This document shows, one piece after another, positions 46,723-64,000 of a stretch of DNA of 64,000 nt. Within the stretch, counting starts at the first letter, position 1. Each line of letters begins with the position of its first letter. This DNA is from Blastococcus colisei (GTDB taxonomy: Bacteria > Actinomycetota > Actinomycetes > Mycobacteriales > Geodermatophilaceae), in contig NZ_VFQE01000001.1 in NCBI RefSeq assembly GCF_006717095.1, forward strand, positions 744,001 to 808,000, in the 5' to 3' direction. The notes below the pieces were generated by a model. It worked only from the letters and a program-made list of their open reading frames with translations. It made no database searches and was not told the origin of the DNA. Made by a program: the position numbers and the translations under genes.

Positions 46723-47022
46723 TCAGACCCCGGCGGCGACGGCGGCGGGCTCCGCGGCGATCAGCCGGGTCCGCTCCTCCTCGCTCATGCCGCCCCAGAC
46801 CCCGTACGGCTCGCGAACCGCGAGCGCATGCTTCAGACAGGCGTCGAGGACGGGGCACCGCGCACAGACAGCCTTCGCGGCGTTCTGCCGCCGAGCCCGG
46901 GCCGGGCCGCGTTCACCGTCGGGGTGGAAGAAGAGCGACGTGTTCTCGCCACGGCAGGCGCCGTGGAGCTGCCAGTCCCAGACCTCCGCGACCGGCGTCG
47001 GGAGTCTGCGAATGTCGGCCAT
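46723..47022 (-). CDS. whiB3: WhiB-family iron-sulfur regulator, WhiB3/WhiD-like
   Basis: WhiB proteins bind a 4Fe-4S cluster and act with the principal sigma factor. The 99-residue product has C23, C53, C56 and C62, and the GVWGG turn followed by EEERTRLI. The WDWQLHGACRG and FFHPDGERGPARARR segments match the WhiB3 (mycobacteria) and WhiD (Streptomyces) subgroup. Neighbourhood agrees: groEL1-groES on one side and bldM-like, DUF5319 and guaB on the other. GGAGACATG gives the start. Redox or NO sensing is inferred from the family. Confidence 0.9.
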   Translation of the reverse strand: MADIRRLPTPVAEVWDWQLHGACRGENTSLFFHPDGERGPARARRQNAAKAVCARCPVLDACLKHALAVREPYGVWGGMSEEERTRLIAAEPAAVAAGV

Positions 47023-47370
47023 GTCTCCTCCAGGGCTCGATGAGCCGGAGGGGGCTGTCCGGCTGCAAGGGGCCGGTGCCCTTGGCCCCGCATGGTCAAA
47101 CACGTCGTGATCGCAACTTTTCGCCCGATGTTCTCCGTCACCGGCCCTCACCCCCCGGGGTGAGGGCCGCTGTCGTAGCCCGATCGTGTCGATCAAGGTG
47201 GGTTCTGGACGCGTCGGTTCCGGAGGTCGATCCATCCCGGAACCGAGCCGCGACCAGCGCAGGGGCAGTGGTTCCAGGGAAGGAGCCGCTACCCGCGCGA
47301 CGCCGGCCGGGTGTCCCCCGGCCGGTTCGGGCCCGGTCGCGAGCCGTCCGGGGGGAGCGAGGAGCAAGGC
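47023..47370. other. Divergent promoter region whiB3-like / bldM-like (348 bases)
   Basis: No gene is supported here. It must hold the promoters of both regulators. I see AT-richer stretches near 47095-47125 but no confident -35/-10 pair, and no clear dyad operator. The regulators may control each other here, which is inference from layout. Confidence 0.5.
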
Positions 47371-48096: not shown

Positions 48097-48188
48097 GCGG
48101 AGCGGCTTTCCTGCCGAGATGCGAATGAGGGCGGTTGTCCGATGCCGGATGACCGCCCTCGTACGCATCTCGGCGCCATGCGCGCCGC

Positions 48189-48587
48189 TCAGTCGTCGCG
48201 GGCGTGGCGGCCGCCGTGCCGGCCGGTCGGTTCCTCGTGCTCGGCGGTCGCCGCCACCCCGTCGGCGTAACCGCTGGCGTAGTCCCAGCTGACGTAGTCG
48301 TCGGGGTTCGGGTCGAACGGCGGCTCGTGCCGGCCGGTCTGCCCCTCGTCCAGCAGCTGGCGCAGGTTGGCCTGCATCAGCGCCCAGTCGACGTGGTGCT
48401 CCTCGTCGCAGTCGGGGCAGTCGACGACGATGCCCTTGATGCCCGTCGGCTCGAGCAGCGTGCGGAACACCTCGAGCTCGGCGAGGTCGTCGAGGACACC
48501 GGCACGCTCCTCCATGGTCAGCGGGGGCTGGCCCGCCGGGTCGAGGGGCCCGTAGTCGGGACCGGAGGCGTCGTCGAACGGAGTCAC
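48189..48587 (-). CDS. DUF5319 family protein
   Basis: The 132-residue acidic protein has LDDLAELEVFRTLLEPTGIK, the CPDCDEEHHVDWALMQANLR block (a C-x2-C pair) and PPFDPNPDDYVSWDYASGYA. It matches the actinobacterial DUF5319 family (Rv3412 type) located beside guaB. Function is unknown. GTG 48587 is chosen because TACCGT lies 7 bases upstream, fitting a leaderless mRNA, whereas GTG 48596 would sit in that hexamer. Divergent from guaB. Confidence 0.8.
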   Translation of the reverse strand: MTPFDDASGPDYGPLDPAGQPPLTMEERAGVLDDLAELEVFRTLLEPTGIKGIVVDCPDCDEEHHVDWALMQANLRQLLDEGQTGRHEPPFDPNPDDYVSWDYASGYADGVAATAEHEEPTGRHGGRHARDD

Positions 48588-48594
48588 GCCTCCC

Positions 48595-48600
48595 ACGGTA
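48595..48600 (-). promoter_or_regulatory. -10-like hexamer of the DUF5319 gene, leaderless spacing
   Basis: TACCGT on the minus strand lies 7 bases before GTG 48587. It is the same hexamer and nearly the same spacing as before mobA. It helps to decide the start codon. Confidence 0.4.
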
Positions 48601-48601
48601 A

Positions 48602-50236
<1,635 letters not shown>

Positions 50237-50237
50237 C

Positions 50238-51395
50238 ATGAGCGCACGCGACACCGTCGAGATCGGTCTCAACCGGTTCGCCCGGCGCGGTTACGACCTC
50301 GACGAGGTCTCGATCGTCCCGTCCCGGCGCACCCGCGACGTCGACGACGTCTCGACCGCCTGGCAGATCGACGCCTTCCGGTTCGGCATCCCGCTGGTCA
50401 CCAGCCCGTCGGACGCCGTGGTCAGCCCGGCGACGGCGATCGCCGTCGGGCAGGCCGGTGGCCTGGGCGTGCTCAACGCCGAGGGCCTGTGGACCCGGTA
50501 CGAGGACCCCGGGCCGGTCTACCGCAAGCTCCGGGACGCCGCGAGCGCGGGTGCCCCGCCGGTCGCGCTGCTCCAGGACGTCTACTGCGAGCCGGTGAAG
50601 CCGGAGCTGATCGGTGAGCGCATCCGCGAGATGCGCGACGCGGGGGTCACGACGGCGGTCCGCGTCTCCCCTCAGCACACCGAGCAGCTCGCGCCCGCCG
50701 CGCTGAAGGCCGGGGTCGACCTGCTGGTCATCCAGGGCACCATCGTCTCCGCCGAGCACGTGACGACGCACGGCGACGCCCTCAACCTCAAGCAGTTCAT
50801 CGCCGACCTCGACGTCCCGGTGATCGTCGGCGGGGCCGCGAACTACACGACCGCCCTGCACCTGATGCGCACGGGAGCCGCCGGCGTCATCGTCGGCGTC
50901 GGTGCCGACAGCTTCTCCACCGGTGACGCCGTGATGGGCATCCGCGTGCCGCTCGCCAGCGCCATCGCCGACGCCGCGGCCGCCCGCCGCGACTACCTCG
51001 ACGAGACCGGCGGCCGGTACGTCCACGTCATCGCCAACGGCCGGATCGAGACCAGCGGCGCGATCGCGAGGGCACTGGCCTGCGGAGCCGACGCCGTGCA
51101 GTTGGGGGAGTCGCTGCGGATCGCCGCGGAGGCGCCCGCCGGCGGCATCTGGTGGGACTCGGTGGCCGCCCACCCGCGGCTGCCGCGTGGCGGTACCTCC
51201 GCACCCGTCGGGCCGGTCGGCTCGCTGGAGCAGGTGCTGCTCGGCCCGGCGCAGACCTCCGACGGCCGCACCAACCTGTTCGGCGCCCTGGCCCGCACGA
51301 TGGCCAAGACCGGCTACCGCGACCTCAAGGAGTTCCAGCGGGTCGACCTCGTCATCGGCGGCTACGACGCGGCCTCGCCCGGCGGCCAGGACTGA
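50238..51395 (+). CDS. guaB3: GuaB3-family IMP dehydrogenase-related protein
   Basis: GuaB3 proteins share the IMPDH/GMP reductase barrel but lack CBS domains. The 385-residue product begins [24 protein letters not shown] and has [20 protein letters not shown]. In the loop corresponding to the catalytic Cys of IMPDH it reads [17 protein letters not shown], with no Cys. The family's reaction differs from classic IMPDH or is unknown. It lies between guaB (1 base gap) and guaA (TGATG overlap), the actinobacterial purine cluster. Confidence 0.92.
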
Positions 51396-52957
51396 TGGAC
51401 TTCCCGACGGTCCTCGTCGTCGACTTCGGGGCCCAGTACGCGCAACTGATCGCCCGCCGGATCCGCGAGGCCGGCGTCTACTCGGAGATCGTGCCGGGCG
51501 ACGTCCCGGCCGAGGAGATCGTCGCCCGCAAGCCGGCCGCGATCGTCCTGTCCGGCGGGCCGTCGAGCGTCTACGCCCCGGGTGCCCCGCAGGTCGACCC
51601 CACGCTGTTCGAGGCCGGCGTCCCGGCCTTCGGCATCTGCTACGGCTTCCAGGCGATGGCCCAGAGCCTCGGCGGAACGGTCGCGCACACCGGCGACCGC
51701 GAGTACGGCGGCACGCCCCTGACCGTCACCACCGAGGGCCGGCTGTTCGGCGCCCTCCCGGTCGAGCAGAACGTCTGGATGAGCCATGGGGACGCCGTCA
51801 GCGCGGCGCCCCCCGGCTTCACCGTCACCGCCACGTCGACCGGTGCGCCGGTGGCCGCGTTCGAGGACGTCGACCGCAAGCTCGCCGGCGTCCAGTTCCA
51901 CCCCGAGGTCCGGCACACCGCGCACGGGCAGACGGTGCTCGAGCACTTCCTCTTCGGCATCGCGGGCCTCGAGCCCACCTGGACGATGGCCAACGTCGTC
52001 GAGGAGCAGGTCGAGCGCATCCGAGCCCAGGTCGGCGAGGGCCGGGCGCTCTGCGCGCTGTCGGGAGGCGTCGACTCCGCCGTCGCCGCGGCCCTGGTCC
52101 AGCGGGCCATCGGGAACCGACTGACCTGCGTCTACGTCGACCACGGGCTGATGCGCGAGGGCGAGACCGAGCAGATCGAGCGCGACTTCGTCGCCGTCAC
52201 CGGGGTCGACCTGCGCGTGGTCGACGCCCGCGAGCAGTTCCTCGGTGCGCTGGCCGGGGTCTCCGACCCCGAGGAGAAGCGGAAGATCATCGGCCGGGAG
52301 TTCATCCGGGTCTTCGAGCAGGCCGCGCTCGACGTCGTCGGCGACGCCAAGGAGCACGGCGACTCCGTCGACTTCCTCGTGCAGGGGACGCTCTACCCCG
52401 ACGTCGTCGAGTCCGGCGGCGGCAGTGGGACGGCGAACATCAAGAGCCACCACAACGTGGGCGGGCTGCCCGAGGACCTCCAGTTCACCCTCGTCGAGCC
52501 GCTGCGGACGCTGTTCAAGGACGAGGTCCGCGAGGTCGGTCTCCAACTGGGCCTGCCCGAGGCGATGGTGTGGCGGCAGCCGTTCCCCGGACCGGGGCTC
52601 GGCATCCGCATCGTCGGCGAGGTGACCCAGGAGCGCCTGGACATCCTCCGCAAGGCCGACGCGATCGTCCGGGCGGAGCTCACGGCGGCCAAGCTGGACC
52701 GCGAGATCTGGCAGTGCCCGGTCGTGCTGCTGGCCGACGTCCGGTCGGTCGGCGTCCAGGGTGACGGCCGCACCTACGGCCATCCGATCGTGCTGCGGCC
52801 GGTGTCCAGCGAGGACGCCATGACCGCGGACTGGACCCGGCTGCCCTACGACGTGCTCGCGAGGATCTCCACGCGGATCACCAACGAGGTGCCCGAGGTC
52901 AACCGGGTCACCCTCGACGTCACCAGCAAGCCGCCCGGCACCATCGAGTGGGAATAA
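51395..52957 (+). CDS. guaA: GMP synthase (glutamine-hydrolysing)
   Basis: GuaA makes GMP from XMP, ATP and glutamine. The 520-residue product has a class I glutaminase domain ([15 protein letters not shown] with the catalytic Cys; QFHPEV with the His), then the ATP pyrophosphatase domain with [14 protein letters not shown]. The dimerisation end follows ([30 protein letters not shown]). ATG overlaps the guaB3 stop (TGATG). A series of GC-rich repeats follows its end. Confidence 0.97.
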
Positions 52958-52995
52958 CAGAAGGACCCCTGGAAGGACCTCGCTGCCCCCCTCCG

Positions 52996-53105
52996 CTCGC
53001 AAGCTCGCGGCGGGACCCTGCACCGAGGCCGTCAGACCCCTCGCAGGCTCGCGGCGGGACCCGGGACGGGGCCTGACCCACGCCTCGCAAGCTCGGCGCG
53101 AACCC
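52996..53105. repeat. Three imperfect copies of a 23-base intergenic repeat
   Basis: CTCGCAAGCTCGCGGCGGGA (then CCC) occurs at 52996-53018, 53040-53062 (one change) and, more diverged, 53084-53105. They fill the space between convergent guaA and the META lipoprotein gene. The array may act as a terminator or be a REP-like element. Confidence 0.7.
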
Positions 53106-53129
53106 CCGCAGCGAGGCCGCTCCAGCACG

Positions 53130-53897
53130 TCACGTGGCGCGGTAGACCAGTCCACGGCCGTCGGGATCGCTCAGCGTCAGCCGGTCGCCGTCGACCGATA
53201 CCTGGAAGCCGTCGCCGAGCACCGTCACCACGTGGCCGTCCTGCGCCGCGACGTCGGCCGGGCAGTCCTCGGTGCCGGCGCGGAGATCGGTCAGCCGCAC
53301 CACGTCGCCCTCGATCCTGAAGCGGCCCGTCAGGTCGCGGCAGCCGGTGGAGCCGGTGGAGCCGGTCAGCGTCCCGTCGTCGGAGAGCTCGAGCGTCGCC
53401 GGCTCGCCCACGGTCGAGCTCGCCGTCTCGCCGTCCAGCAGGGTCTCGAGCGTCCACCGGGTACCCGTCAGTTCGCTCTCGGGCACCGGCGTCACCCGGG
53501 TGAACCGCAGCTCGACGCCGTCGCCGGTGAGCACGAGGGCCTCCCCGTCGGTCACCGCGGTGTCCACGGTGCCGAGGGCGGCCAGGTAGACGCGCTCGGC
53601 GGCCATCACGTCCGGCTCGCACCCCATCTCGGTGCCGCCCAGACCGTCGACCGAGAAGGACGTACCGCTGATCCGGTAGGACGAGAAGTAGTGGTTGCAG
53701 AATGAGACGCCGCCCGCCTCGCCGCCGTCGAGATCGAGGGTGGCGCGAGCCCCCGAGGGTTGCGGCAGTGCTGCGCCGTCCGCCGTCCCCCCGCTGAACT
53801 GCCACCGCCCCTCGACATCCCCCGCGCCCGCGCTCGCGCCCGAGCCGCAGGCGGCGAGCGCCAGCACGGCGACAAGGAGCAGCACGGAGCGGTGCAC
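53130..53897 (-). CDS. META-domain lipoprotein
   Basis: The 255-residue product starts at GTG with a lipoprotein signal (SVLLLVAVLALAACGSGASA, lipobox Cys near residue 17). Two META/HslJ-like beta domains follow: VEGRWQFSGG with CNHYFSSYRISGTSFSVDGL, and LTGTRWTLETLLDGE with GSTGCRDLTGRFRIEGD, each with a conserved Gly/Cys turn. A surface-anchored lipoprotein of unknown function is likely; some HslJ proteins affect antibiotic sensitivity. It is convergent with guaA. Confidence 0.78.
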   Translation of the reverse strand: MHRSVLLLVAVLALAACGSGASAGAGDVEGRWQFSGGTADGAALPQPSGARATLDLDGGEAGGVSFCNHYFSSYRISGTSFSVDGLGGTEMGCEPDVMAAERVYLAALGTVDTAVTDGEALVLTGDGVELRFTRVTPVPESELTGTRWTLETLLDGETASSTVGEPATLELSDDGTLTGSTGSTGCRDLTGRFRIEGDVVRLTDLRAGTEDCPADVAAQDGHVVTVLGDGFQVSVDGDRLTLSDPDGRGLVYRAT

Positions 53898-54032
53898 GTC
53901 AGCTCGACGCGCGGCGGGACCGTCCGGTTCCCACGGCGACGGCGTTGCCGGCGACGGTCCCGCCGCGAATGCGGTGCTGCCGCAGCCGTGCTGGGGTGAG
54001 GCGACCTGGTCGGCGAGCGGACGGAGCACCGA

Positions 54033-55106
54033 GTGACCACCTCGCCGTGGCCGCTCGTGCCCAGCCTGCTCGCGCTGGCCGGCATGGCGGTCGTCATCGT
54101 GCTCGCCGGCGTCCGGCTCACCCGCATCGCCGACACCCTCTCCGAGCGCACCGGGCTCGGTGACGCGGTCGGTGGAGCCCTCCTGCTCGGGGCGGTGACC
54201 TCGCTGCCCGGCAACGTCACGGTGCTGACCGGCGCGCTGGAGGGCGATCCCGGATTCGCCTTGAGCAACCCGATCGGCGGCATCGCGCTGCAGACGGTCT
54301 GGCTCGCCATCGCCGACCTGGTCTATCGCCGGGCGAACCTCGAGCATGCCGCGGCATCACTGGAGAACGTGCTGCAGTCGGTGATCCTGATGGCGATGCT
54401 GGCAGTACCCGTCATCGGCTACGCGACGCCGGAACTGCGGCTGGGCTGGATCCACCCGATCACGCTGCTGATCCCGCTGCTCTACGCCTACGGCCTGCGG
54501 CTGCTCCGCCGGATGCACGAGGAACCGATGTGGCGGCCCACCCGTACCGACGAGACGGCCGACGACGACACCGGTGAGAACGGGAACGGCGGGGACGCCG
54601 GGAACGGGGGAGGTGACGGGACGGACGACGCGGACGGCGCACCCTCCACGGCCCGGCTCTGGGCCGGACTCGCCGGCCTGGGCCTGGTCGTGGGTGTCGC
54701 CGGCTGGATCGTCGGCCAGGCCGGCCTGGGCGTGGTCGCGGCGACCGGACTGGACAGCGGGCTGGTCGGGTTCACGCTCACCACGGCCATCAGCTCGCTG
54801 CCCGAACTGGTCGTACTGGTCACGGCGGTCCGCATCGGCCAGCTGACCCTGGGCGTCGGCAACATCGTCGGCGGCAACGTCTACGACGTCCTGATGATCT
54901 CCCTGGCCGACGTCGCCTACCTGGAGGGTCCGATCTACCGCGACGCCGGCCCGACCAGCCTGGTGCTGCTGGGCGGCACCGTGCTGATGACGGCCGTCCT
55001 CACCGGTGGCCTGATCATGCGCGACCGCAAGTGGATCGGCTTCGAGGGGATCTCGATCCCGCTCATCTACCTGGGCACCGTCGCCCTCGTGTTCTCCAGC
55101 GACTGA
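54033..55106 (+). CDS. Sodium/calcium exchanger family membrane protein
   Basis: The 357-residue product has about ten membrane helices in two halves. Each has the alpha-repeat motif of the cation/Ca2+ exchanger superfamily: GALLLGAVTSLPGNVTVLTG and FTLTTAISSLPELVVLVTAV. An acidic Asp/Gly/Asn-rich loop (about residues 172-205, DDDTGENGNGGDAGNGGGDG) separates them and could bind metal. The ion is not identified. GTG 54033 is the start. It is divergent from the META lipoprotein gene. Confidence 0.85.
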   Translation: MTTSPWPLVPSLLALAGMAVVIVLAGVRLTRIADTLSERTGLGDAVGGALLLGAVTSLPGNVTVLTGALEGDPGFALSNPIGGIALQTVWLAIADLVYRRANLEHAAASLENVLQSVILMAMLAVPVIGYATPELRLGWIHPITLLIPLLYAYGLRLLRRMHEEPMWRPTRTDETADDDTGENGNGGDAGNGGGDGTDDADGAPSTARLWAGLAGLGLVVGVAGWIVGQAGLGVVAATGLDSGLVGFTLTTAISSLPELVVLVTAVRIGQLTLGVGNIVGGNVYDVLMISLADVAYLEGPIYRDAGPTSLVLLGGTVLMTAVLTGGLIMRDRKWIGFEGISIPLIYLGTVALVFSSD

Positions 55107-55122
55107 GCCCCTCGACGGCGAG

Positions 55123-55150
55123 GGCCCGGGGAGCGGTTGCTCCCCGGGCC
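55123..55150. terminator. Bidirectional terminator between convergent genes
   Basis: GGCCCGGGGAGC (55123-55134) and GCTCCCCGGGCC (55139-55150) pair perfectly around GGTT. It lies 17 bases after the exchanger stop and 24 bases before the convergent membrane-protein gene end. Confidence 0.8.
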
Positions 55151-55173
55151 GTTCCGACGTCCGCGCCTCGTGC

Positions 55174-55476
55174 TCAGCCCCGGCGGCGCCGGGCCTTCTT
55201 CAGCTCCGACACCAGCAGCGCGACACCGCCACCGATCAGCAGGACCCAGACGAACCCGCCGTCCTCCCAGAACTCGAACGGCAGGTCGACGCCGGCCATC
55301 GAGACGACCGCCAGGGCGATGAACAGCAGCCCCGGGATCAGCGCACCCAGGTCGACCGGTCGCTTGCGCGGCTCGGGGGAGTCCTCGGTGGACAACGGGG
55401 TCACGGTCTGCCAGTCCTTCAACTGCTGCTCCTGCCAGGCGGTCGGCGTGGTGGGGAACTCGCTGTAGTCAGCCAC
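55174..55476 (-). CDS. Hypothetical two-helix membrane protein
   Basis: The 100-residue product has a polar N-terminus (ADYSEFPTTPTAWQEQQLKD) and two hydrophobic helices (LGALIPGLLFIALAVVSMAG and GGFVWVLLIGGGVALLVSEL). A basic end KKARRRRG closes it. It overlaps the end of the PspC/LiaF-like gene by 8 bases and is probably cotranscribed with it. No family was recognised. Confidence 0.75.
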   Translation of the reverse strand: MADYSEFPTTPTAWQEQQLKDWQTVTPLSTEDSPEPRKRPVDLGALIPGLLFIALAVVSMAGVDLPFEFWEDGGFVWVLLIGGGVALLVSELKKARRRRG

Positions 55477-56416
55477 GCCGCACCTCCACGTCCCCGAGAC
55501 CGGCGTGGATGGTCAGGACGAACTCGGGTTCACCGTCGTCGGTCCACGAGCGGTCGCCGGTGCCGGGGAAGAAGCCCTCGGTCTCGGACCCGCGGTCGAA
55601 GACCTGGACGTCACCGAGGCCGTGGTCGATCTGCAGCCGCACGTCCGCCGGGCGGGGGACGACGACCTCCAGGTCGCCGACGCCGTGCTCGATGCGGGTC
55701 GTCACCGGGTCGCCGGAGATGCCCTGGTCCAGCCGGGTCAGGTCGACGGTCACGTCGCCCAGCCCGCCCCGGTAGACCTCGCGGACCTCCGCGACGGTGG
55801 CCGGCCGGTAGGTCCGGTCGCCCACGCCGGAGCCGGACACGTCCACCGTCGACACGGTGACCAGCGCCAGCGAGAGGACGACGCCGAGGGCGACGAGGCC
55901 ACCGCGGGAGCTCCGGCCACGGGTGAAGGCGGCGGCCACGAGACCGAGGCCGACGACCAGGAGCGCGGTGCCGAGGAAGACCCGACCGCCGAGATCTGAG
56001 TCCGTGACGTTGTTCAGCAGGGTCAGGAAGCCCATCGCGATCAGCAGGCCGGCGATGGTCAGGCCCGGGACCGGCGACCGCGGTCCGGCCGGCTGCTTCG
56101 CCACCGCGGTGCCCGCCGGTGCGCCCGCGGTGGAGGGGGGCCCGGCAGGCATCAGCACCCAGAGCAGCAGGTAGACGATCACGCCGGTGCCGGCGGCGAG
56201 GGTCAGGGCGACGAAGCCGACCCGCCAGAGCAGCGCGTCGATGCCGCTGTACTCGGCCAGGCCGCCGTTGACACCACCGAGGATCTTGTCGGTGCGGCTG
56301 CGGCGCAGCTGCGGGCGGACCGGCTGCGGTCCCTCCGGTGGGGGCGGCGGCCAGGACGGCGGCTCCATCGGCGGCGGCAGGGGAGGGGGAGCTGCGGGAG
56401 GCGGTGCGGATGTCAT
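55469..56416 (-). CDS. PspC-domain protein with LiaF-like C-terminus
   Basis: The 315-residue product has a Pro-rich N-terminus (residues 1-35), a PspC domain (RSRTDKILGGVNGGLAEYSG, with its helix VGFVALTLAAGTGVIVYLLL) and further membrane helices. A C-terminal beta domain (about residues 205-315) has repeated VDLTRLDQGISGDPV and LQIDHGLGDVQVFDRG segments, as in LiaF-type regulators of envelope-stress kinases. It is divergent from a PspC-histidine kinase and its response regulator, completing a LiaFSR-like set. Confidence 0.85.
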   Translation of the reverse strand: MTSAPPPAAPPPLPPPMEPPSWPPPPPEGPQPVRPQLRRSRTDKILGGVNGGLAEYSGIDALLWRVGFVALTLAAGTGVIVYLLLWVLMPAGPPSTAGAPAGTAVAKQPAGPRSPVPGLTIAGLLIAMGFLTLLNNVTDSDLGGRVFLGTALLVVGLGLVAAAFTRGRSSRGGLVALGVVLSLALVTVSTVDVSGSGVGDRTYRPATVAEVREVYRGGLGDVTVDLTRLDQGISGDPVTTRIEHGVGDLEVVVPRPADVRLQIDHGLGDVQVFDRGSETEGFFPGTGDRSWTDDGEPEFVLTIHAGLGDVEVRRG

Positions 56417-56551
56417 GTCACAGAGCCTGCCGACCGGGCGGGCCGGAATCCATCAGGGAACGCCCCCATCCGACCCTGGATCGGCCGGGACTGCTCTTCC
56501 AGGGTGATCACCCGTGTCGGAGCGGGGGGCAGCGGTGCGACGATCGAGTAC

Positions 56552-57757
56552 GTGACCACCACTGCGACCGGGGCGCTGCCCGGCACGACGGCCGCCCGGC
56601 CGCCGCTGGTGCGCCCACGGTCCGGGCGGCTGGTGGCAGGCGTCGCGGCGGGGACGGCCGCGCACCTGCGTCAGGACCCACTGGTGGTCCGGGTCGCCTT
56701 CGTCGTCCTGGCGAGCTTCGGCATCGGCGTCGTCATGTACGCGCTGCTGTGGCTGACCATGTCCGTGGCCGCGCCGGGGGAGGACCCGACCCCGGGCGCC
56801 GTGCAGCTGATGCGGCCCACCGGCCGCCGGCAGCTGATCACCCTGGTGCTGCTCGGGATCGCTGCCGTCACGGTCATCGGCCAGGTGGCCAGGCTCAGCA
56901 GTGGCGACCTGGTGCTGCCGCTGATCGTGGTCGCCGTCGGCATGACCGTCATCTGGCGGCAACTGGACAGCGACCGCACGCTCAACGTGCCCGGCGTCCG
57001 CTGGGCCCTCGCCGGGGGTGCCGCCCTGGCGGCGGGCGGCGTGATCCTGCTGCTGGCGACGACCGGACAGCTCGCCAACGCCCGCAACGGCTTCGCCGCC
57101 ACCCTGGTCATCCTCACCGGCGTCGTCCTGGCGACGGCGCCGATCTGGCGGCGGCTGCTGGACTCCCGGGCCGAGGAGCGCACGGCGCGCATCCGGTCGG
57201 AGGAGCGGGCCGCCGTCGCCGCCCACCTGCACGACTCCGTGCTCCAGACGCTGGCGCTGATCCAGCGCCATGCCGAGGAGCCGCAGGCGGTCGGGCGGCT
57301 GGCCCGCAGCCAGGAACGGGAGCTGCGCGCCTGGCTGTACGACCCGCAGGTGGTCCGCGAGGGCGGTACCTGGGCCGGGCTGGTGGCGCAGATGGTGTCC
57401 GACGTGGAAGCCGACCACGCCCTGCTGGTGGAGCCGGTCGTCGTCGGGGACGCCCCGGTGGACGAGGCGCTCGCGAATCTGGGCTCGGCGACCCGCGAGG
57501 CGCTGGTCAACGCGGCCAAGCACTCCGGGGCCACGGCGGCCGACCTGTACACGGAGGTCACGCCCGACCGGGTGTCGGTCTACGTCCGCGACCGCGGCAC
57601 GGGGTTCGATCCGGCGGAGGTGCCCGACGACCGCCGGGGGCTGCGCGACTCGGTCAGCGGCCGGCTGGCCCGGCTCGGGGGGACGGCCGTGGTGCGGTCC
57701 GCGCCCGGCGAGGGAACCGAGGTGGAGCTGGTGCTCCCGAGAGGAGCAACCCCATGA
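56552..57757 (+). CDS. PspC-domain sensor histidine kinase
   Basis: The 401-residue product (GTG 56552; in-frame GTG 56504 is also possible) starts with a PspC domain (LVAGVAAGTAAHLRQDPLVV, helix AFVVLASFGIGVVMYALLWL). Four further helices come next, then a HisKA_3 dimerisation helix with the phospho-His in AHLHDSVLQTLALIQRHAEE. The ATPase domain follows (NAAKHSG, YVRDRGTGFDPAEVPDDRRG). It senses envelope stress in LiaS-like fashion by inference. Its stop overlaps the response regulator start (ATGA). Confidence 0.9.
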   Translation: MTTTATGALPGTTAARPPLVRPRSGRLVAGVAAGTAAHLRQDPLVVRVAFVVLASFGIGVVMYALLWLTMSVAAPGEDPTPGAVQLMRPTGRRQLITLVLLGIAAVTVIGQVARLSSGDLVLPLIVVAVGMTVIWRQLDSDRTLNVPGVRWALAGGAALAAGGVILLLATTGQLANARNGFAATLVILTGVVLATAPIWRRLLDSRAEERTARIRSEERAAVAAHLHDSVLQTLALIQRHAEEPQAVGRLARSQERELRAWLYDPQVVREGGTWAGLVAQMVSDVEADHALLVEPVVVGDAPVDEALANLGSATREALVNAAKHSGATAADLYTEVTPDRVSVYVRDRGTGFDPAEVPDDRRGLRDSVSGRLARLGGTAVVRSAPGEGTEVELVLPRGATP

Positions 57758-58413
57758 TCTCCCCGCGCGTCTTCGTGGTCGACGACCACGCCATGGTCCG
57801 TGCCGGTGTGCGCGCCGAGCTGGGGGACGACGTCACGTTCGTCGGTGAGGGTGTCGACGTCCCCTCGGCCGTCGACGGCATCCGCGCCACGCGACCGGAC
57901 GTCGTCCTGCTCGACGTGCACATGCCGGGCGGGGGTGGCCGGACGGTGCTGGAGACGCTGCGCACCGAGCTGCCCGACGTGAAGTGGCTCGCGCTCTCGG
58001 TGTCCGACGCCGCCGAGGACGTCATCGCGGTCATCCGGGCCGGCGCGAAGGGCTACGTCACCAAGACCATCTCCGGACCGGACCTGCTCGACGCCGTCCG
58101 CCGGGTGGCCGACGGCGACGTCGTCTTCAGCCCCCGGCTGGCCGGGTTCGTGCTGGACGCGTTCTCCGCCGGCGGGCCGTCGGCGCCGGAGCCGGAGGAG
58201 GAGGCGACCGACCCCGGGCTGGACCTGCTCAGCGCGCGTGAACGCGAGGTCATGCAGCTCCTGGCCCGTGGCTACACCTACCGCGAGATCGGCTCCCGGC
58301 TGTTCATCTCGGTGAAGACCGTCGAGTCCCACGCGTCGAACGTGCTGCGCAAGCTCCAGCTGTCCAACCGCAACGAGCTCACCCGCTGGGCGGCGACCAA
58401 CCGCCTGCTCTGA
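57754..58413 (+). CDS. NarL/LuxR-family response regulator, partner of the PspC kinase
   Basis: The 219-residue product has an intact receiver (FVVDDHAMVRAGVRAELGDD; phosphoacceptor in VVLLDVHMPGGGG; Lys in GAKGYVTK) and a LuxR helix-turn-helix (LLSAREREVMQLLARGYTYR, VKTVESHASNVLRKLQLSN). Overlap with the kinase gene (ATGA) shows a two-component pair. It likely controls the divergent PspC/LiaF-like operon and other envelope genes. Confidence 0.93.
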   Translation: MISPRVFVVDDHAMVRAGVRAELGDDVTFVGEGVDVPSAVDGIRATRPDVVLLDVHMPGGGGRTVLETLRTELPDVKWLALSVSDAAEDVIAVIRAGAKGYVTKTISGPDLLDAVRRVADGDVVFSPRLAGFVLDAFSAGGPSAPEPEEEATDPGLDLLSAREREVMQLLARGYTYREIGSRLFISVKTVESHASNVLRKLQLSNRNELTRWAATNRLL

Positions 58414-58512
58414 CCGGTCCGCCCCGGGCGCCCGCCGAGCGCCGACTCACGGTCACCCCCATGATGCTGAGGGCGGGGGTGAACCAGGTCACGCCCGCAG
58501 CCCCGTGAGGAG

Positions 58513-59865
58513 ATGACGCCGATGCTGCGCACCTTGTCCCGCCCGCTGGTTGCCGGCGTGGAGCGTTATCTCCCCGGCGCCTTCGTCTTCGCGGTGGTCC
58601 TCACCGTCATCGTGGCCGTGCTCGCGCTCGTCTTCGGCGACGTCGGACCCGCGGAGCTGACGCGGGCCTGGGGCGACGGGCTGGCCGGCCTGCTGGCGTT
58701 CATGACGCAGGTGGCCCTCGTGCTCCTGCTGGGCTACACGCTGGCGCTGACCCGGCCGGTCAAGGCGGGCCTGATCCGCATCGCCGATCTGCCCAAGAGC
58801 CCCCGCGCGGCGTACGCGTTCGTCGCGTTCGTCTCCGCGGTGGCGTCGCTGATCAGCTTCGGGCTGGGGCTGGTGGTCGGTGGCGTCATCGCCCTCGAGG
58901 TGGGTCGCGCCGCTCGACGCCGGGGCACGAAGCTGCACTACCCGCTGCTCGTCGCCAGTGCCTACTCCGGCTTCGCCGTCTGGCACATGGGGTACAGCGC
59001 CACCGGTCCCCTCGCCGCCGCGACGCCCGGCAGCTTCGTCGAGGAGGCGATCGGCCGGACCATCCCGATCAGCGAGACGGTCTACTCGCCGTGGAACCTC
59101 ATCGCGATCGTGGTCGCCGTCGCGGCGATCCTCGGGACCGTCGTCCTGATGGCCCCGAAGGGCAAGGACCGGATCATCGAGCTCCCCGAGCGGATGGGGG
59201 AGGAGGAGCCCGACGTCGCGCTGAAGGACCCGGAGACCCCCGCCGAGCGCATGGAGGCCTCCCGGCTGGTCACCCTGATCCCCGGCCTCGCGCTGCTGGC
59301 CTACCTGGGGGTCTACTTCGCGCAGGAGGGCTTCGATCTCACCCTCGACATCGTCAACTGGAGCTTCCTCGCCGCCATCCTGCTGATCGTGCGCAGTCCG
59401 GCAGAGCTCGCCGAGCTCGTGGGCGGGGCGGTGCGGACGGTCGGCGAGGTGCTGCTCCAGTACCCGCTCTACGCCGGGATCATCGGGATGATGACCGCCT
59501 CCGGGTTGGCGGCCCAACTCAGCGGCTGGTTCAGCGACATCTCCAGCCCCGGCACTCTGGGGCTGTGGGCCTTTCTCTCGGCCGGCCTGCTCAACATGTT
59601 CGTCCCGAGCGGCGGCGGGCAGTTCGCCGTCCAGGCGCCGATCTTCCTGAACGCTGCCGACTCGCTCGGGGTCGATCCGGCCGTCATCACGATGGCGATC
59701 GCCTACGGCGACCAGTGGACCAACATGATCCAGCCGTTCTGGGCGCTGCCGCTGCTCGCCGTCGCCGGGCTCGGGGTCCGGGACATCTTCGGGTTCACCG
59801 CGATCACCTGCCTGATCACCGGGATCGTGTTCGGCGGGACGATGCTCGTTCTCGGAGCCGGTTGA
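58513..59865 (+). CDS. AtoE-family short-chain fatty acid transporter
   Basis: The 450-residue membrane protein has about a dozen helices and AtoE signatures (VERYLPGAFVFAVVLTVIVA, HYPLLVASAYSGFAVWHMGY, FVPSGGGQFAVQAPIFLNAA, ITMAIAYGDQWTNMIQPFWA). The family takes up short-chain fatty acids such as butyrate or acetoacetate in E. coli; the substrate here is inferred. GAGGAGATGACG precedes the ATG. It follows the response regulator by about 100 bases. Confidence 0.88.
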   Translation: MTPMLRTLSRPLVAGVERYLPGAFVFAVVLTVIVAVLALVFGDVGPAELTRAWGDGLAGLLAFMTQVALVLLLGYTLALTRPVKAGLIRIADLPKSPRAAYAFVAFVSAVASLISFGLGLVVGGVIALEVGRAARRRGTKLHYPLLVASAYSGFAVWHMGYSATGPLAAATPGSFVEEAIGRTIPISETVYSPWNLIAIVVAVAAILGTVVLMAPKGKDRIIELPERMGEEEPDVALKDPETPAERMEASRLVTLIPGLALLAYLGVYFAQEGFDLTLDIVNWSFLAAILLIVRSPAELAELVGGAVRTVGEVLLQYPLYAGIIGMMTASGLAAQLSGWFSDISSPGTLGLWAFLSAGLLNMFVPSGGGQFAVQAPIFLNAADSLGVDPAVITMAIAYGDQWTNMIQPFWALPLLAVAGLGVRDIFGFTAITCLITGIVFGGTMLVLGAG

Positions 59866-59869
59866 GCGG

Positions 59870-60604
59870 TCAGGCGGTGTGGACGACGTGGAAGGCCTCG
59901 GCGAGCCTGCCGTCGGCCAACCCGAAACGCTGCGCCGTCTGACCCATCCAACCCGTCACGAACTGCTCCAGCTCGGGCATGTGGCCGACCTGCGTCACGT
60001 GGCAGCGCAACGCGGCCATCTTGCGGTCGAGCACGTCGGTGACGTCCACGGGGTGGTCGGCCCGCGGGCTGGCGCCCAGCCACACCTCCGACACCGTCCA
60101 GGCCTCCAGCCCCTCCTCGTCCAGCAGCTCCGGGAACGCGAACGGATTGCGGGCGTCGGGGTAGACCGCGCGCATCGTCGCCTCGCCGACGGTCATGTGG
60201 TCGGGGTGGCTAGCGGCGACCCGCTCCCAGAACCGCTCCGGCGAGGTGGTCAGGACGCGCTGCGGCTTCACCTGCCGGATGACCCGGCTGATGTCCCGGC
60301 GCAGGTCGAGGGTCAGCTCCAGCCGCCCGTCGGGGTAGCCGAGGAAACGCACGTCGCTCACTCCGACCGCGGCTGCGGCGGCCTGCTGCTCGGCCCGCCG
60401 GAGGATCGGCATCTGCTCCCGAGGTGTCTCGTCGAAGCCGCCCGCGTCGCCGTCGGTCACGATGCAGTAGACGACCTCGGTGCCGGCCGACGTCCAGGTC
60501 GCGACGGTCCCCGCCGACCCGAAGTCCACGTCGTCGGGATGGGCGAGGACGCAGAGGACCCGCTCGACGTGCTCGGCCGGATTGCGGGGGAGGGGCGGGG
60601 TCAC
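59870..60604 (-). CDS. PIG-L family N-deacetylase
   Basis: The 244-residue product has the LmbE/PIG-L zinc motif VLCVLAHPDDVDFGSAGTVA (His-Pro-Asp-Asp), then VVYCIVTDGDAGGF and SHPDHMTVGEATMRAVYPD with the third metal His. Such enzymes remove acetyl groups from sugars, for example MshB and Mca in mycothiol metabolism. Specific substrate is not determinable; it could be an MshB/Bca-like enzyme. GTG 60604 is used, as the longer in-frame ATG start at 60946 runs antisense into the sigma factor gene. It is convergent with atoE. Confidence 0.85.
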   Translation of the reverse strand: MTPPLPRNPAEHVERVLCVLAHPDDVDFGSAGTVATWTSAGTEVVYCIVTDGDAGGFDETPREQMPILRRAEQQAAAAAVGVSDVRFLGYPDGRLELTLDLRRDISRVIRQVKPQRVLTTSPERFWERVAASHPDHMTVGEATMRAVYPDARNPFAFPELLDEEGLEAWTVSEVWLGASPRADHPVDVTDVLDRKMAALRCHVTQVGHMPELEQFVTGWMGQTAQRFGLADGRLAEAFHVVHTA

Positions 60605-60614
60605 CCGCGCGAGC

Positions 60615-61526
60615 CTAGAAGTCGTTCGCGGCGGCGGAGAGGCCGGAGAGCTTGTCCGGGTTCCGCACGATGAGGACCTGCTCGACGACGCCGTCGGCCA
60701 CGACCAGCGACATCGCCAGCAGCGGCTCCTCCCCGGCCCAGGCCACGATCCCGGGGGCGCCGTTGACCTCGGCGACCTCGACCCGCAGGCCGGGAAGGCT
60801 GAAGCCCTGCGTCGCGGTCGCGGCGACGAACCGGGCGACCTTCTCCGCACCCAGGATGGGGCGGAGCGCGGCCTTCGCCTTGCCGCCGCCGTCGCTGACC
60901 AGCACGACGTCCGGCGCGAGGACGGCCAGCAGCGCCGCCAGATCACCGGAGGCGCAGGCGGCGAAGAACCGCTCGGTCACCTCCCGCTGCGACTGCCGGT
61001 CGGTGTCGAAGCGAGGACGGCGGGCGCGCACGTGCTCGCGGGCGCGGTGGGCCATCTGGCGGACGGCGACCTCGGTGCGGCCCAGCGTGCCGGCCACCTC
61101 GGCCATCGACATGCCGAACACCTCGCGCAGCACGAAGACGGCCCGCTCCGTGGGGGAGAGCGTCTCCAGGACCACCAGCAGAGCCAGCGACACCTGCTCG
61201 CCGACCTCGGCGGCCTCCGTCGGGTCGACCGGTGCGGACCCGGAGGCGACCAGTCCCGCGCCGGTCAGGAGCGGTTCCGGCAGCCACGGACCGACGTAGC
61301 TCTCCCGCCTGCTGCGGGCCGAGGTCATCCGGTCCAGCGCGAGCCGAGTAGCGGTCTGCACGAGGTAGGCCCGCTCGTCCGCCACCTCGCTCCGGTCGGC
61401 CGCAGACCAGCGCAGCCACGCGTCCTGCACGACGTCCTCGGCGTCGGAGACGCTGCCGAGCATCTGGTAGGCCACCGAGAACAGCAGCCGCCGGTGGCGG
61501 TCGAACGGAGCGAGCGCCGAGGTCAT
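60615..61526 (-). CDS. ECF41-type RNA polymerase sigma factor (SigJ-like)
   Basis: The 303-residue product has sigma2 (LLFSVAYQMLGSVSDAEDVV) and sigma4 (SPTERAVFVLREVFGMSMAE), then a SnoaL/NTF2-like C-terminal extension. The three ECF41 signatures are present: WLPEP between sigma2 and sigma4, DGGGK in the extension, and NPDKL near the end. ECF41 factors have no separate anti-sigma factor; the extension controls activity. Its ATG overlaps the stop of the upstream carboxymuconolactone decarboxylase-like gene. Confidence 0.94.
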   Translation of the reverse strand: MTSALAPFDRHRRLLFSVAYQMLGSVSDAEDVVQDAWLRWSAADRSEVADERAYLVQTATRLALDRMTSARSRRESYVGPWLPEPLLTGAGLVASGSAPVDPTEAAEVGEQVSLALLVVLETLSPTERAVFVLREVFGMSMAEVAGTLGRTEVAVRQMAHRAREHVRARRPRFDTDRQSQREVTERFFAACASGDLAALLAVLAPDVVLVSDGGGKAKAALRPILGAEKVARFVAATATQGFSLPGLRVEVAEVNGAPGIVAWAGEEPLLAMSLVVADGVVEQVLIVRNPDKLSGLSAAANDF

Positions 61527-62095
61527 GCCGGGCGGCCGGGGATCTCGCAGCGGTCCCTGAAGCCCTGGCTGGTCAGTCCGAGGGCGCTGTTGAACCGCGA
61601 CCGGCTGTTCTCCACGGACACCATCATCGTGAGCTCGACCAGTTGGGCGTCGTCCAGCCGGCGACGCAGTGCAGCGACCATCTCGTCGGTGACCCCGACC
61701 GGCGTGGTGCTCATCGCCTCGGCGTAGGCCATCACCTGGCGCTCCAGGTCGGAGTAGACGTCGCTGTCGCGCCAGCGCGGGACGTCGCGGAGCTTGGCCG
61801 GGTCGACGCCGTCCTCGGCGCTCACCCAGTAGCCGAAGTCCATGCACCAGGAGCAGCCGATCGTGGCGGCCGAGGACATGACGGCCAGCGCCTTCAGCGT
61901 CGGGTCGAGGTGGTTCCACCGGGCGAGCGACTGCTCGTACCGGATGTAGGTGCGCAGGACGCGGCCGTTGTGCGCGATCGCCGCACCCGGGTCGAGAACC
62001 GTGCCGTAGGTGCGGCGCGAGTACCACTGGGTGAGCCGGTTGAGCAGCGTGCGGGGCGGGTCGAGGGGGATGCGGGCGTCGTCGGTCGCGGTCAT
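61523..62095 (-). CDS. Carboxymuconolactone decarboxylase-family protein, ECF41 partner
   Basis: The 190-residue product has the AhpD-like CSWCMDFG (C-x2-C) motif in a helical fold. ATIGCSWCMDFGYWVSAEDG shows the active-site pair, but no His follows at the usual place. Genes of the carboxymuconolactone decarboxylase, oxidoreductase or epimerase type are the usual partners and targets of ECF41 sigma factors. It is the first gene of this operon. ATG 62095 follows GGAGAGGAACC; the extension to 62314 would run over the promoter. Its substrate is unknown. Confidence 0.9.
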   Translation of the reverse strand: MTATDDARIPLDPPRTLLNRLTQWYSRRTYGTVLDPGAAIAHNGRVLRTYIRYEQSLARWNHLDPTLKALAVMSSAATIGCSWCMDFGYWVSAEDGVDPAKLRDVPRWRDSDVYSDLERQVMAYAEAMSTTPVGVTDEMVAALRRRLDDAQLVELTMMVSVENSRSRFNSALGLTSQGFRDRCEIPGRPA

Positions 62096-62587
62096 GTCGG
62101 TTCCTCTCCATCGGGTGGGTGCACTCATGGAGACGGAACAGCGCAGCCGGATGTGACACGGCCGGGAGATCAGGGCCGGAGCCGGTCGGGTCCAGCCCCT
62201 GGCGACCCGACCGGCCCGGCGACCGGATGCACCCTCGGCCCCTCGGAGAGCGGCGAAGCGGTGGCGCCCGGTCCCCGGCAACATCCGGGCGCTCCGCGGG
62301 GTCACGGCGGACACGCCCGGTCGCGCCGGACGTCGGGATCAGCAGAGGCCGGGTGCGATACGTCGCACCCGGACGGGCGCACGGGCGCAGTGACGGGACG
62401 CGGGTGCAGATGCTGTCGCCCGGAACCTGGCGGCGACGTCGGCGGGCAGGCGGTGCCCGAACGGCGGCACGGGCATCGGTTCGTGCATCGGCCTCACGTC
62501 CTTCCGGTGGGCGGTGACCGGAGGAGGCGCGGGACGGGACGCCGGATACAGCGCCCGCCGCGAGAGGCCGGCGGGCACACTCTCGCG
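62096..62587. other. Intergenic region (492 bases) with ECF41 promoter and a 10-bp hairpin
   Basis: The left end holds the ECF41 promoter. CCGGGTGCGA-TACG-TCGCACCCGG (62349-62372) is a perfect 10-bp palindrome of unknown role. A 49-codon minus-strand ORF (62339-62488, starting MHEPMPVPPFGHRLPADVAA, after GGAAGGAC) is possible but unsupported. Nothing else stands out. Confidence 0.5.
62132..62158 (-). promoter_or_regulatory. ECF41 promoter (TGTCACA-N16-CGTC)
   Basis: On the minus strand TGTCACA (62152-62158) and CGTC (62132-62135) are separated by exactly 16 bases. This agrees with the published ECF41 promoter elements as I remember them. It lies about 40 bases before the decarboxylase-like gene start. 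The operon should be autoregulated by its own sigma factor. Confidence 0.8.
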
Positions 62588-62881
62588 GTGGACACCTTCA
62601 CCCTCTTCCTCGCGCTGCGTCCCGAACCACCGCTGGACCAGGCGGCCGTCGACGCGCTGGGTGGAGTACTGCGCCCCGGGGACGACGACCTGCGCGTGTG
62701 GCGCGAGGAGGGGCGCGGCCTCCTCCGGGTGTCGACGGAGACATCCGCCGAGGGGCTCGAGGCGGCGCTGGAGCTCGCGCACGGGCTGGGCGCCGAGGTG
62801 CTGGCGGAGTGCCCGGGGACGCTGCTCGAGGTCTCGGCCCTGGGGGACGAGGACTCCCTGGTCTGGCGCGCGGTCCCCTGA
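62588..62881 (+). CDS. Small hypothetical protein
   Basis: The 97-residue product from GTG 62588 is soluble and acidic: MDTFTLFLALRPEPPLDQAA, EGLEAALELAHGLGAEVLAE and a final SALGDEDSLVWRAVP. It has a beta-alpha-beta look but no recognised family. CACACT lies 6 bases before the GTG and there is no ribosome site, so the mRNA may be leaderless. It is convergent with the chorismate mutase gene and shares a palindromic terminator-like element. Confidence 0.65.
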   Translation: MDTFTLFLALRPEPPLDQAAVDALGGVLRPGDDDLRVWREEGRGLLRVSTETSAEGLEAALELAHGLGAEVLAECPGTLLEVSALGDEDSLVWRAVP

Positions 62882-62895
62882 CGGTCCCGCTGTAC

Positions 62896-62939
62896 GGCCC
62901 CGTCCCGAGGCTCGCCCTGAACGTCGAAGGACGGGGACC
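62896..62939. repeat. Palindromic element between convergent genes
   Basis: CCCCGTCC (62898-62905) pairs with GGACGGGG (62929-62936), and the interior includes GAGGCTCGCCC, as in the element at 41116-41170. It probably terminates both the small hypothetical gene and the chorismate mutase gene. Confidence 0.6.
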
Positions 62940-62943
62940 TCGT

Positions 62944-63234
62944 TCAGAGCCGGCCGCGACCCTGACGGAGCAGCATCATGCCGAGCGCGGCGCCGTCGGC
63001 ACCCAGCGCCGCCTCGAACCGCGCGAGCACCTGCTGCTCACGGGAGAGGTTGAGTCGCGTGCCGCCGCTGGCCGACCGCAGCGCGCCGATCTCCTGCGAG
63101 ATGGCCAGCCGGCGCCGGACGAGCTCGATGATCTCGGCGTCGCACGCGTCGATCGCGGACCGCAGTTCGCCGATGCGCTCGATCTCGGTGCCGGTGACGG
63201 CGACGGGCGCGGAGGAGGCGGTGAGGGCGCTCAT
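62944..63234 (-). CDS. Chorismate mutase, AroQ type
   Basis: The enzyme converts chorismate to prephenate, the first step of Phe and Tyr synthesis. The 96-residue all-helical product has IGELRSAIDACDAEIIELVR (active-site Arg), RRRLAISQEIGALR with the second Arg, SGGTRLNLSREQQVLARF and LLRQGRGRL. This pattern is like the intracellular chorismate mutase Rv0948c, which also lies beside uvrD1. No secretion signal is seen, so it is cytoplasmic. Its minus-strand leader carries an attenuator-like array (see leader ORF). Confidence 0.93.
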   Translation of the reverse strand: MSALTASSAPVAVTGTEIERIGELRSAIDACDAEIIELVRRRLAISQEIGALRSASGGTRLNLSREQQVLARFEAALGADGAALGMMLLRQGRGRL

Positions 63235-63283
63235 GGGATGTCCTTCGGGTGCTGGTGGCCCGTAGGTCCCCGGAAACGAGAAA

Positions 63284-63313
63284 ACGCCCCGGGGCTCTTC
63301 GGGCCCGGGGCGT
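63284..63313 (-). terminator. Terminator-like hairpin with T-rich tail in the chorismate mutase leader
   Basis: Read on the minus strand, ACGCCCCGGG (63304-63313) and CCCGGGGCGT (63284-63293) pair perfectly. The stem is followed by TTTTCTCGTTT, and the chorismate mutase ATG is about 50 bases further. No minus-strand gene ends just before it, so it acts as a leader attenuator rather than a gene-end terminator. Confidence 0.75.
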
Positions 63314-63330
63314 CTGTTGCGGCGGAGTGC

Positions 63331-63393
63331 TCAGCCAGCGGTGACGGACACCGGATCCCGGTGACCGTAGTAAAAGCTGACCGTGGCGAGCAC
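63331..63393 (-). CDS. Putative leader peptide of the chorismate mutase gene (Phe-Tyr-Tyr)
   Basis: GTG 63393 to TGA 63331 encodes MLATVSFYYGHRDPVSVTAG. Codons 7-9 are TTT TAC TAC, the two end products of the chorismate mutase branch; there is no Trp. TTT is a rare codon choice in a genome this GC-rich. A hairpin (63344-63368) begins at the last Tyr codon, and the T-tailed hairpin follows. CAGACT lies 7 bases before the GTG and there is no ribosome site, so the transcript may be leaderless. Ribosome-stalling attenuation is inferred. Confidence 0.6.
   Translation of the reverse strand: MLATVSFYYGHRDPVSVTAG
63344..63368 (-). promoter_or_regulatory. Pause/antiterminator-region hairpin in the chorismate mutase leader
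   Basis: On the minus strand ACGG-T-CACCGG and CCGGTG-T-CCGT form a 10-bp stem with one T-T mismatch around GAT. It starts at the last base pair of the Tyr-Tyr codons, so a ribosome stalled there would prevent its 5' arm from pairing. That is the layout of segment 1:2 in classic attenuators. Confidence 0.55.
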
Positions 63394-63494
63394 GGACCGG
63401 AGTCTGCCACAGGTCCGACGCGATCGCCACGATCGGCTCGTGGGACGGGTGGGGTGGACGTGGACGGCGCCCGGGGAGTGTCCCCCGTCCGGCT

Positions 63495-63500
63495 TACAGT
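63495..63500 (+). promoter_or_regulatory. -10-like hexamer of the helicase gene
   Basis: TACAGT lies 9 bases before ATG 63510, the start of a 20-codon ORF, and about 70 bases before the helicase ATG. The infA promoter here also has TACAGT. No convincing -35 was seen. Confidence 0.4.
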
Positions 63501-63509
63501 GATGTGGTC

Positions 63510-63572
63510 ATGAACCCACCCCACGAAAACGCTCCGCTGGCGCTCCACGTCTCCGCGGGGACCCCGGGATGA
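63510..63572 (+). CDS. 20-codon ORF overlapping the helicase start
   Basis: ATG 63510 to TGA 63570-63572 encodes [20 protein letters not shown]. The stop overlaps the helicase ATG (ATGA). Its start is 9 bases after a -10-like hexamer, fitting a leaderless mRNA. It may serve for translational coupling. No homolog is recognised and it may be chance. Confidence 0.35.
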
Positions 63573-64000
63573 GCGTCCAGGAGGCCCTGACCGGGCCGCA
63601 GCAGTCCCTGCCCGGAACCGAGGCCCTCCAGCGCACCGCCAAGGGCCCCGTCGGGCGCGAGCTCGAGCGGATGCTCGCCGGTCTCAACGGCCCACAGCGC
63701 CAGGCCGTCGTCCACGAGGGCGGGCCGCTGCTCATCGTGGCCGGCGCGGGCTCGGGGAAGACCCGGGTGCTCGCGCACCGGATCGCCTACCTGCTGGGTG
63801 CGCGCCACACCCAGCCCGGCGAGATCCTCGCGATCACGTTCACGAACAAGGCCGCCGGCGAGATGAAGGAGCGGGTGGCCCACCTCGTCGGGCCGCGCGC
63901 CCGCGCGATGTGGGTCTCGACGTTCCACTCCATGTGCGTGCGCATCCTCCGCGCCGAGGCCGCCAAGCTGGGCCTGAAATCGTCGTTCACGATCTACGAC
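63569..64000 (+). CDS. UvrD/PcrA-like ATP-dependent DNA helicase, N-terminal part
   Basis: The helicase unwinds DNA in repair and replication. The first 144 residues are visible, to the window edge. After a 40-residue extension come the Q-motif [12 protein letters not shown], Walker [21 protein letters not shown], motif Ia [20 protein letters not shown] and [20 protein letters not shown]. Adjacency to the chorismate mutase gene matches the Rv0948c-uvrD1 order. ATG 63569 overlaps a short upstream ORF (ATGA). PcrA and UvrD1 names cannot be told apart from this part. Confidence 0.93.

Follow-up and report, generated by a model that had tools for sequence, protein, structure and literature searches.

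A candidate phenylalanine- and tyrosine-sensing attenuator upstream of the chorismate mutase gene of Blastococcus colisei

Chorismate mutase (CM) commits chorismate to phenylalanine and tyrosine, and the locus described here raises the question of whether its gene responds to the supply of these two end products. The analysis started from a stretch of 64,000 nucleotides of the Blastococcus colisei genome (the window), in which an earlier note, made from the sequence alone, had read a Phe/Tyr attenuator in front of a CM gene. Direct reading of the minus strand from 63406 to 63234 gives a leader block composed of a -10 hexamer, a GTG-started ORF, two hairpins and a T-rich tail, followed by the CM gene (Table 1). 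The claimed hexamer CAGACT, the seven bases after it, and the ORF of 20 codons with TTT TAC TAC as codons 7 to 9 were confirmed base for base, and reading also bore out the GC hairpin with its T-rich tail and the ATG of the CM gene downstream. The hairpin described as 10 bp long (P1) does begin, as claimed, at the control codons, namely at a Tyr codon, but its ten pairs are not continuous, skipping an internal U.U mismatch. In the minimum energy fold, the outer helix P0 joins the first 13 nt of the leader ORF to its end and stop region. The predicted antiterminator is capped by a predicted hairpin around the leader stop codon, and this antiterminator overlaps the pairing of CCGGTGTC with GACGCCCCGG that the earlier note had suggested.

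Table 1. Coordinates of the leader and of the CM gene in the window.
Feature	Position	Strand	Remark
-10 hexamer CAGACT	63401..63406	-	TGG precedes, extended -10 like; seven-base gap to GTG (63393)
Leader ORF VLATVSFYYGHRDPVSVTAG (mRNA probably leaderless)	63331..63393	-	GTG start, 20 codons, TGA 63333-63331
Control codons 7-9, TTT TAC TAC (Phe Tyr Tyr)	63367..63375	-	
Hairpin P1 (segments 1:2)	63344..63368	-	10 pairs and one U.U mismatch
Outer helix P0	63327..63393	-	Minimum energy fold; 63393-63381 pairs with 63341-63327
Predicted antiterminator (2:3)	63304..63354	-	63354-63343 pairs with terminator 5' arm 63314-63304
Terminator hairpin (3:4), GC	63284..63313	-	Sequence and folding
T-rich tail TTTTCTCGTTT, imperfect	63274..63284	-	Sequence
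Shine-Dalgarno-like GAAGGA of the CM gene	63241..63246	-	Sequence
CM gene (AroQ, Rv0948c type), 96 aa	62944..63234	-	ATG at 63234; the regulated gene

The region from 63400 to 63270 folded with -65.1 kcal/mol in RNAfold against a mean of -49.6 kcal/mol for dinucleotide-shuffled sequences (z -3.94; 0/200 shuffles as good). A stock terminator scan of positions 44001-64000 returned four sites and the leader terminator was not among them, which we suppose to be due to a loop longer than the 8 bases to which the scan is limited. The gene behind the leader was confirmed as an Rv0948c-type CM: it scored 44.3 bits with Pfam CM_2, above the cut-off, exceeded the cut-offs of NCBIfam PRK07857 and TIGR01808, and its product had Rv0948c as top PDB match. 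It is also the only CM_2 match of the genome at E<=0.001. Within the same 5.16 Mb genome, the pattern TTYTWYTAYGGNNACCGG had one exact match, the leader itself; when up to two mismatches were allowed, 14 matches were obtained versus 28 for the reversed control pattern. The leader was likewise the only good match of its genome to the second covariance model described below, and no similar leader was seen upstream of the two DAHP synthase genes found there. On the other side of the leader, a gene recognised by eye as UvrD/PcrA-like helicase starts divergently at 63569 (63569-64000), and a comparable divergent start is apparently present in some relatives too, again by eye.

CM was present in 109 of 112 genomes of the family Geodermatophilaceae. 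Leaving out one locus at a contig edge, 108 upstream regions were compared, 30 of them obtained in the search itself and 78 retrieved separately, and all 108 carried a Phe-x-Tyr-Gly anchor. Hexamer and start could be read by script in 106 leaders, which form the parsed set; the other two (L057 and L065) have altered hexamers in an unchanged layout, as judged by eye. In 103/106 leaders, a hexamer CANA[CA]T precedes the GTG by 7 nt (78 leaders) or 6 nt (25 leaders); L057, L065 and L108 are not in this count, the last of them having been parsed later for the codon count. This short distance fits a leaderless mRNA, which is probable for the window ORF; the aroR leader of Corynebacterium glutamicum, taken up below, is reportedly leaderless. 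The leader peptides have variable ends and a nearly fixed core, F-x-Y-G-x-R-x-P, whose conservation at the amino-acid level holds within the family and for the most part between families. The GC core of the terminator hairpin was found in all 106 parsed leaders, and at least five T occurred among the 12 bases after it in 100 of them. These tails hold a median of six T in 12 nt, and the longest T run is of two or fewer in 29/106. Just past the terminator tail of the window lies CCGGGG (63268-63273); a GGGG-type element, defined by a loose pattern, follows the terminator in 80/106 family leaders. Two records titled Bacillus sp. AZ43 (L186) and Propionibacteriaceae UBA6122 (L209) have a CM and a leader that look like those of Blastococcus and Micromonospora, respectively; the DNA of the former is identical to that of L019, from the genus of the window, and both records are probably mislabelled.

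The control codons were the most constant part of the parsed leaders. The first was TTY in 106/106 (TTT 101, TTC 5) and the third TAY in 106/106 (TAC 103, TAT 3), and the short aromatic-codon ORF that the earlier note had suggested looking for across the family did prove to be conserved. The middle codon varied (TAC 53, TCC 20, TTC 18, GCC 6, CCC 5, TTT 3, CTC 1), coding for Tyr or Phe in 74 of the 106. The claimed absence of Trp codons held for all parsed family leaders, with none in their 2170 codons, and a single one was found when the final 18 codons were counted in 50 leaders from other families. TTT accounts for only 1/235 Phe codons in 32 heuristically chosen ORFs of the window, and codon frequencies from the same ORFs give a probability of about 7e-6 for F-[FY]-Y at a given place. 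According to the sections of PMC1183508 available to us, high sensitivity needs a particular choice among synonymous regulatory codons, a point that may bear on the conserved TTT.

For covariation, 61 leaders from across the order were aligned by fitting them to the structure of the model, a procedure that favours the model; 95.0% of the alignment cells pair, 6/17 pairs have changes on both sides, and the covariation score was reached by 0/500 shuffles. The covarying stems anticipated by the earlier note are thus present. Both-side changes affect 4/9 pairs of P1 across the order and, within the family, a change of C-G to U-A in P1 accompanies a His to Tyr codon, and one of A-U to G-C a His to Arg codon.

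The note had further proposed mutually exclusive 1:2, 2:3 and 3:4 pairings. In predicted folds with a ribosome placed at the Tyr codon and the terminator cut back to its 5' half, segment 2 paired with that half in 106/106 leaders (7-11 pairs), and partial transcripts with the ribosome at the Phe or middle codon also folded into the antiterminator in 106/106. The ribosome-free leader formed P1 in 98/106 and lacked the antiterminator in 99/106. A ribosome set at the stop codon allowed the core of the terminator to form in every leader. Once the whole terminator was included, the equilibrium fold of the Tyr-stalled RNA showed no antiterminator pair in 82/106 leaders; 23 leaders retained two to four pairs, and a single one the full helix. 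The model therefore depends on kinetics, and a switch that works kinetically would be expected to show this loss at equilibrium. When the spacer was shuffled and the terminator arm left intact, folds were as good as the native one in 1170 of 3600 shuffles (36/106 leaders, mean z -0.69, not significant), so that fold energy alone is no evidence for the antiterminator.

In a swap of arms between families (67 leaders), the native antiterminator had a mean of -20.4 kcal/mol versus -16.3 kcal/mol for the swapped arms. The set comprised 18 family leaders (every sixth of the 106) and 49 others, L167 having been dropped for want of a Tyr-Gly. The native pairing was better than the mean swap in 56/67 leaders (f1 18/18, f13 10/10, f14 15/20, rest 13/19), and not in 11/67; some of these failures are attributable to the script, which misplaced the terminator in some leaders (e.g., L134, L137 and L138), kept in the averages all the same. 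Ten of 11 family means favoured the native antiterminator, those of f4 and f8 by less than 1 kcal/mol, and it was not favoured in the single f11 leader. A clear case is found in f13, with GGACTCCGG in P1 versus CCGGAGTCC in the terminator arm. Hence, the exclusive pairings are supported by folding and by the swap test, but not by the spacer-shuffle control. For P0, native pairing was better than the mean swap in 17/24 family groups and in 35/41 leaders of other families (the other 9/50 had doubtful starts and were excluded). On average, 36% of the swaps did equally well in the 106 family leaders, and support for this helix is modest. Start calling across families was heuristic and came out too early for several leaders (e.g., L126, L127, L147 and L165).

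Taken together, most comparative tests agree with the Phe/Tyr attenuator and one control, the spacer shuffles, gave no support. We estimate at roughly 87% the probability that the leader is a ribosome-mediated transcription attenuator sensing Phe and Tyr, a reading made from sequence comparison and folding, and we infer that the leader ORF is translated and that ribosome stalling and readthrough respond to these two amino acids. Under this model, RNA polymerase would start at the GTG or right beside it, and translation would begin directly on the leaderless 5' end. With Phe-tRNA and Tyr-tRNA charged, the ribosome would reach the UGA stop and either cover segment 2 or leave, letting P0/P1 re-form; in either event the terminator hairpin would form and transcription would end before CM. 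If Phe or Tyr were short, the ribosome would stall on UUU UAC UAC, covering the 5' arm of P1, and segment 2 could pair with the 5' arm of the terminator during its synthesis, which would block the terminator and allow CM to be transcribed. Without translation P0/P1 would form, making termination the default. Further points against the attenuator are that it has two or three control codons only and that its T tracts are imperfect, as well as the deviating leaders L164 and L275 and the class genomes without a match, all described below.

A leader of this kind could act in a different way, with stalling exposing or hiding downstream sites so that translation, mRNA decay or Rho, and not intrinsic termination, is affected. 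Such a mode of action would suit those members of the family whose T tracts are weak, and mycobacterial cysteine leaders without a clear terminator figure in the part of PMC1262725 available to us. We nevertheless regard it as unlikely, given the GC hairpin core in 106/106 leaders, the five or more T in the next 12 bases in 100/106, and predicted pairings that engage the 5' arm of the terminator and not the Shine-Dalgarno region of CM. A reading of the ORF as the gene of a functional small protein, equipped with a terminator of its own and with CM reached by ordinary readthrough only, appears quite improbable. The conservation of F-x-Y-G-x-R-x-P as amino acids would be in line with it, but the peptide ends are variable, the changes of His to Tyr or Arg coincide with compensating base changes in P1, CM or DAHP synthase accompanies the ORF throughout the loci examined, and Trp additions occur mostly at DAHP synthase.

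The G-x-R-x-P conserved after the aromatic codons could also belong to an arrest peptide, that is, a peptide-specific ribosome arrest, perhaps with a small-molecule effector, in place of hungry codons. The residues before the aromatic codons vary, however, and the conservation of G-x-R-x-P is explicable by the overlap of those residues with P1 and the antiterminator, which leaves an arrest peptide highly improbable. As to a chance ORF next to an ordinary terminator, GC-rich DNA commonly contains short GTG ORFs and many chance ORFs appear in the list for the window, but an anchor in 108/108 family regions and covariation across the order make its probability practically nil: conservation, the strongest evidence against chance, rules it out. 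Searched against Rfam at E<=1, positions 62700-63700 gave one match, to a microRNA model and below the gathering score, and none to a T-box model. Five homologues searched at E<=0.5 gave five matches, all below gathering scores and none to a leader family.

The spread of the attenuator-like leader was followed with a covariance model, R1, which was built from 56 leaders and searched against 49 genomes picked from the order, that of the window included. Matches at E<=0.1 were obtained in 44/49 genomes. Among the best 30, one was the window and CM adjoined the leader in 29/29 others. The leader was beside CM in 10 of 13 other sampled families of the order (f2, f4-f8, f11-f14); matches in f9 and f10 (E 5e-6 to 1e-5) lie outside the 29 loci checked for CM. 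Reading by eye of 20 CM upstream regions, six of them repeats of loci already counted, added 14 new loci, 13 of which had an aromatic leader, including L167 and L168 in f3; in L172 and L167 the aromatic codons come in a different order. At the remaining one of the 14, L164, hexamer, GTG ORF and terminator are kept without the aromatic codon cluster, as judged by eye, possibly a loss or change of sensing. When 99 CM loci were searched, 70 of the 75 from the order matched the model at E<=1 (18 of the 70 come from the alignment of the model itself, and L174 and L204 are one contig) and five did not (L164, L168, L219, L224 and L230). None of the 24 loci from elsewhere matched at E<=1; most of these belong to other phyla, but Ornithinimicrobium (L241) and a Thermoleophilia genome (L251) are also among them.

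With a second covariance model, a match at E<=1e-4 was obtained in 47 of the 158 class genomes searched, leaving 111/158 without a match at this threshold and under strict filters. Among 28 class loci (L255-L282), the gene beside the leader was CM in 21 and a type Ib DAHP synthase in seven. The CM group includes a genus with large genomes (f28), taken to be Streptomyces, in which the leader starts with ATG, e.g., MLTHPTFLFTYGNRPTGCHGRAA; in two additional families of the class, f23 and f27, the match lies beside CM and the aromatic clusters are shorter. Of 20 weaker matches to the model, nine adjoin CM or DAHP synthase by tblastn. Two single loci were noted besides: at L275 (CM) the leader ORF LSKQRRFFYGYRSAVPVV is kept and the GC terminator hairpin is seemingly deleted, by eye, and L298 combines a strong GC hairpin with a short ORF, VVGLMFEFYTGQNTTGREH, which a hexamer precedes by 7 nt. 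At the DAHP synthase genes, which belong to other families of the class, 10/12 distinct loci (L273, L274, L277, L278, L280, L281, L282, L302, L306, L307, L309 and L310) have Trp beside Phe and Tyr codons in the leader, e.g., MQRNFWRFYGYRPDTPVACRALR, the exceptions being L306 and L307; Trp was judged by eye in L282, where the hexamer spacing differs. Since Trp codons occur mostly there, the codons tend to follow the end products of the enzyme. Recurrence of this arrangement in several other actinobacterial families suggests a feedback switch that is old and, it seems, not yet described. More tentatively, and with the odds somewhat against all of it holding jointly, one ancestral leaderless module (core F-x-Y-G-[YH]-R, P1 and terminator) may control aromatic biosynthesis in a large part of the Actinomycetes, with lineages attaching it either to CM, for sensing of Phe and Tyr, or to type Ib DAHP synthase, where Trp codons are usually added for sensing of all three products, and with the conserved, otherwise avoided UUU sharpening the response.

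The nearest described system is aroR of C. glutamicum, a Phe-Tyr-Phe leader before aroF, which encodes a DAHP synthase (Neshat 2014, as presented in the available parts of PMC11802643 and PMC4046766). Both are short leaders with Phe and Tyr codons before an enzyme of the aromatic pathway in an actinobacterium, and for aroR a response to Phe limitation is reported: in the part of PMC11802643 at hand, this limitation raises aroF expression, whereas Tyr is without effect. The two differ in the regulated enzyme, DAHP synthase versus CM, and in the codons, Phe-Tyr-Phe versus Phe-Tyr-Tyr, and the likeness is drawn from published descriptions of aroR. In Escherichia coli, pheL-pheA also places a leader before a gene with CM activity, regulated there by charged Phe-tRNA (same source, in the part at hand), but the enzyme is bifunctional, the phylum is another one, and the window has no matching Rfam leader. 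The actinobacterial trp and ilvB attenuators (Seliverstov 2005, PMC1262725, available sections) share with the CM leader the leader peptide, a triple of complementary segments (trp) and a GC-rich terminator, and sense other amino acids; according to those sections, the regions upstream of Phe or Tyr operons in Actinobacteria showed no conserved RNA structures. The ilvB1 attenuator of Mycobacterium tuberculosis likewise has a uORF with control codons, a terminator and an antiterminator, and differs in responding to branched-chain amino acids (PMC13236596, available part). In the portions at hand of their main texts, PMC13236596 mentions neither Rv0948c nor chorismate, and PMC4633059, PMC9094748 and PMC2965389 do not mention Rv0948c; the attenuator table for S. 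lividans in the available part of PMC8079986 lists eight leaders, none of them for CM. The literature found contained no description of transcriptional control of an Rv0948c-type CM and, supplementary tables aside, no CM attenuator in actinobacteria, although a premature terminator at CM may exist there undiscussed.

Ribosome-mediated attenuation of the trp/phe type is itself already known, and the leader upstream of CM would be one more instance of it. In C. glutamicum, CM acts as the partner of AroG, a DAHP synthase, in a complex, according to the part of PMC11802643 available. If the reading is true, a widely conserved attenuator would explain how the level of CM follows the supply of Phe and Tyr, would offer a native sensor for producers of aromatic amino acids, and would provide natural variants in which to study how codon choice sets specificity.
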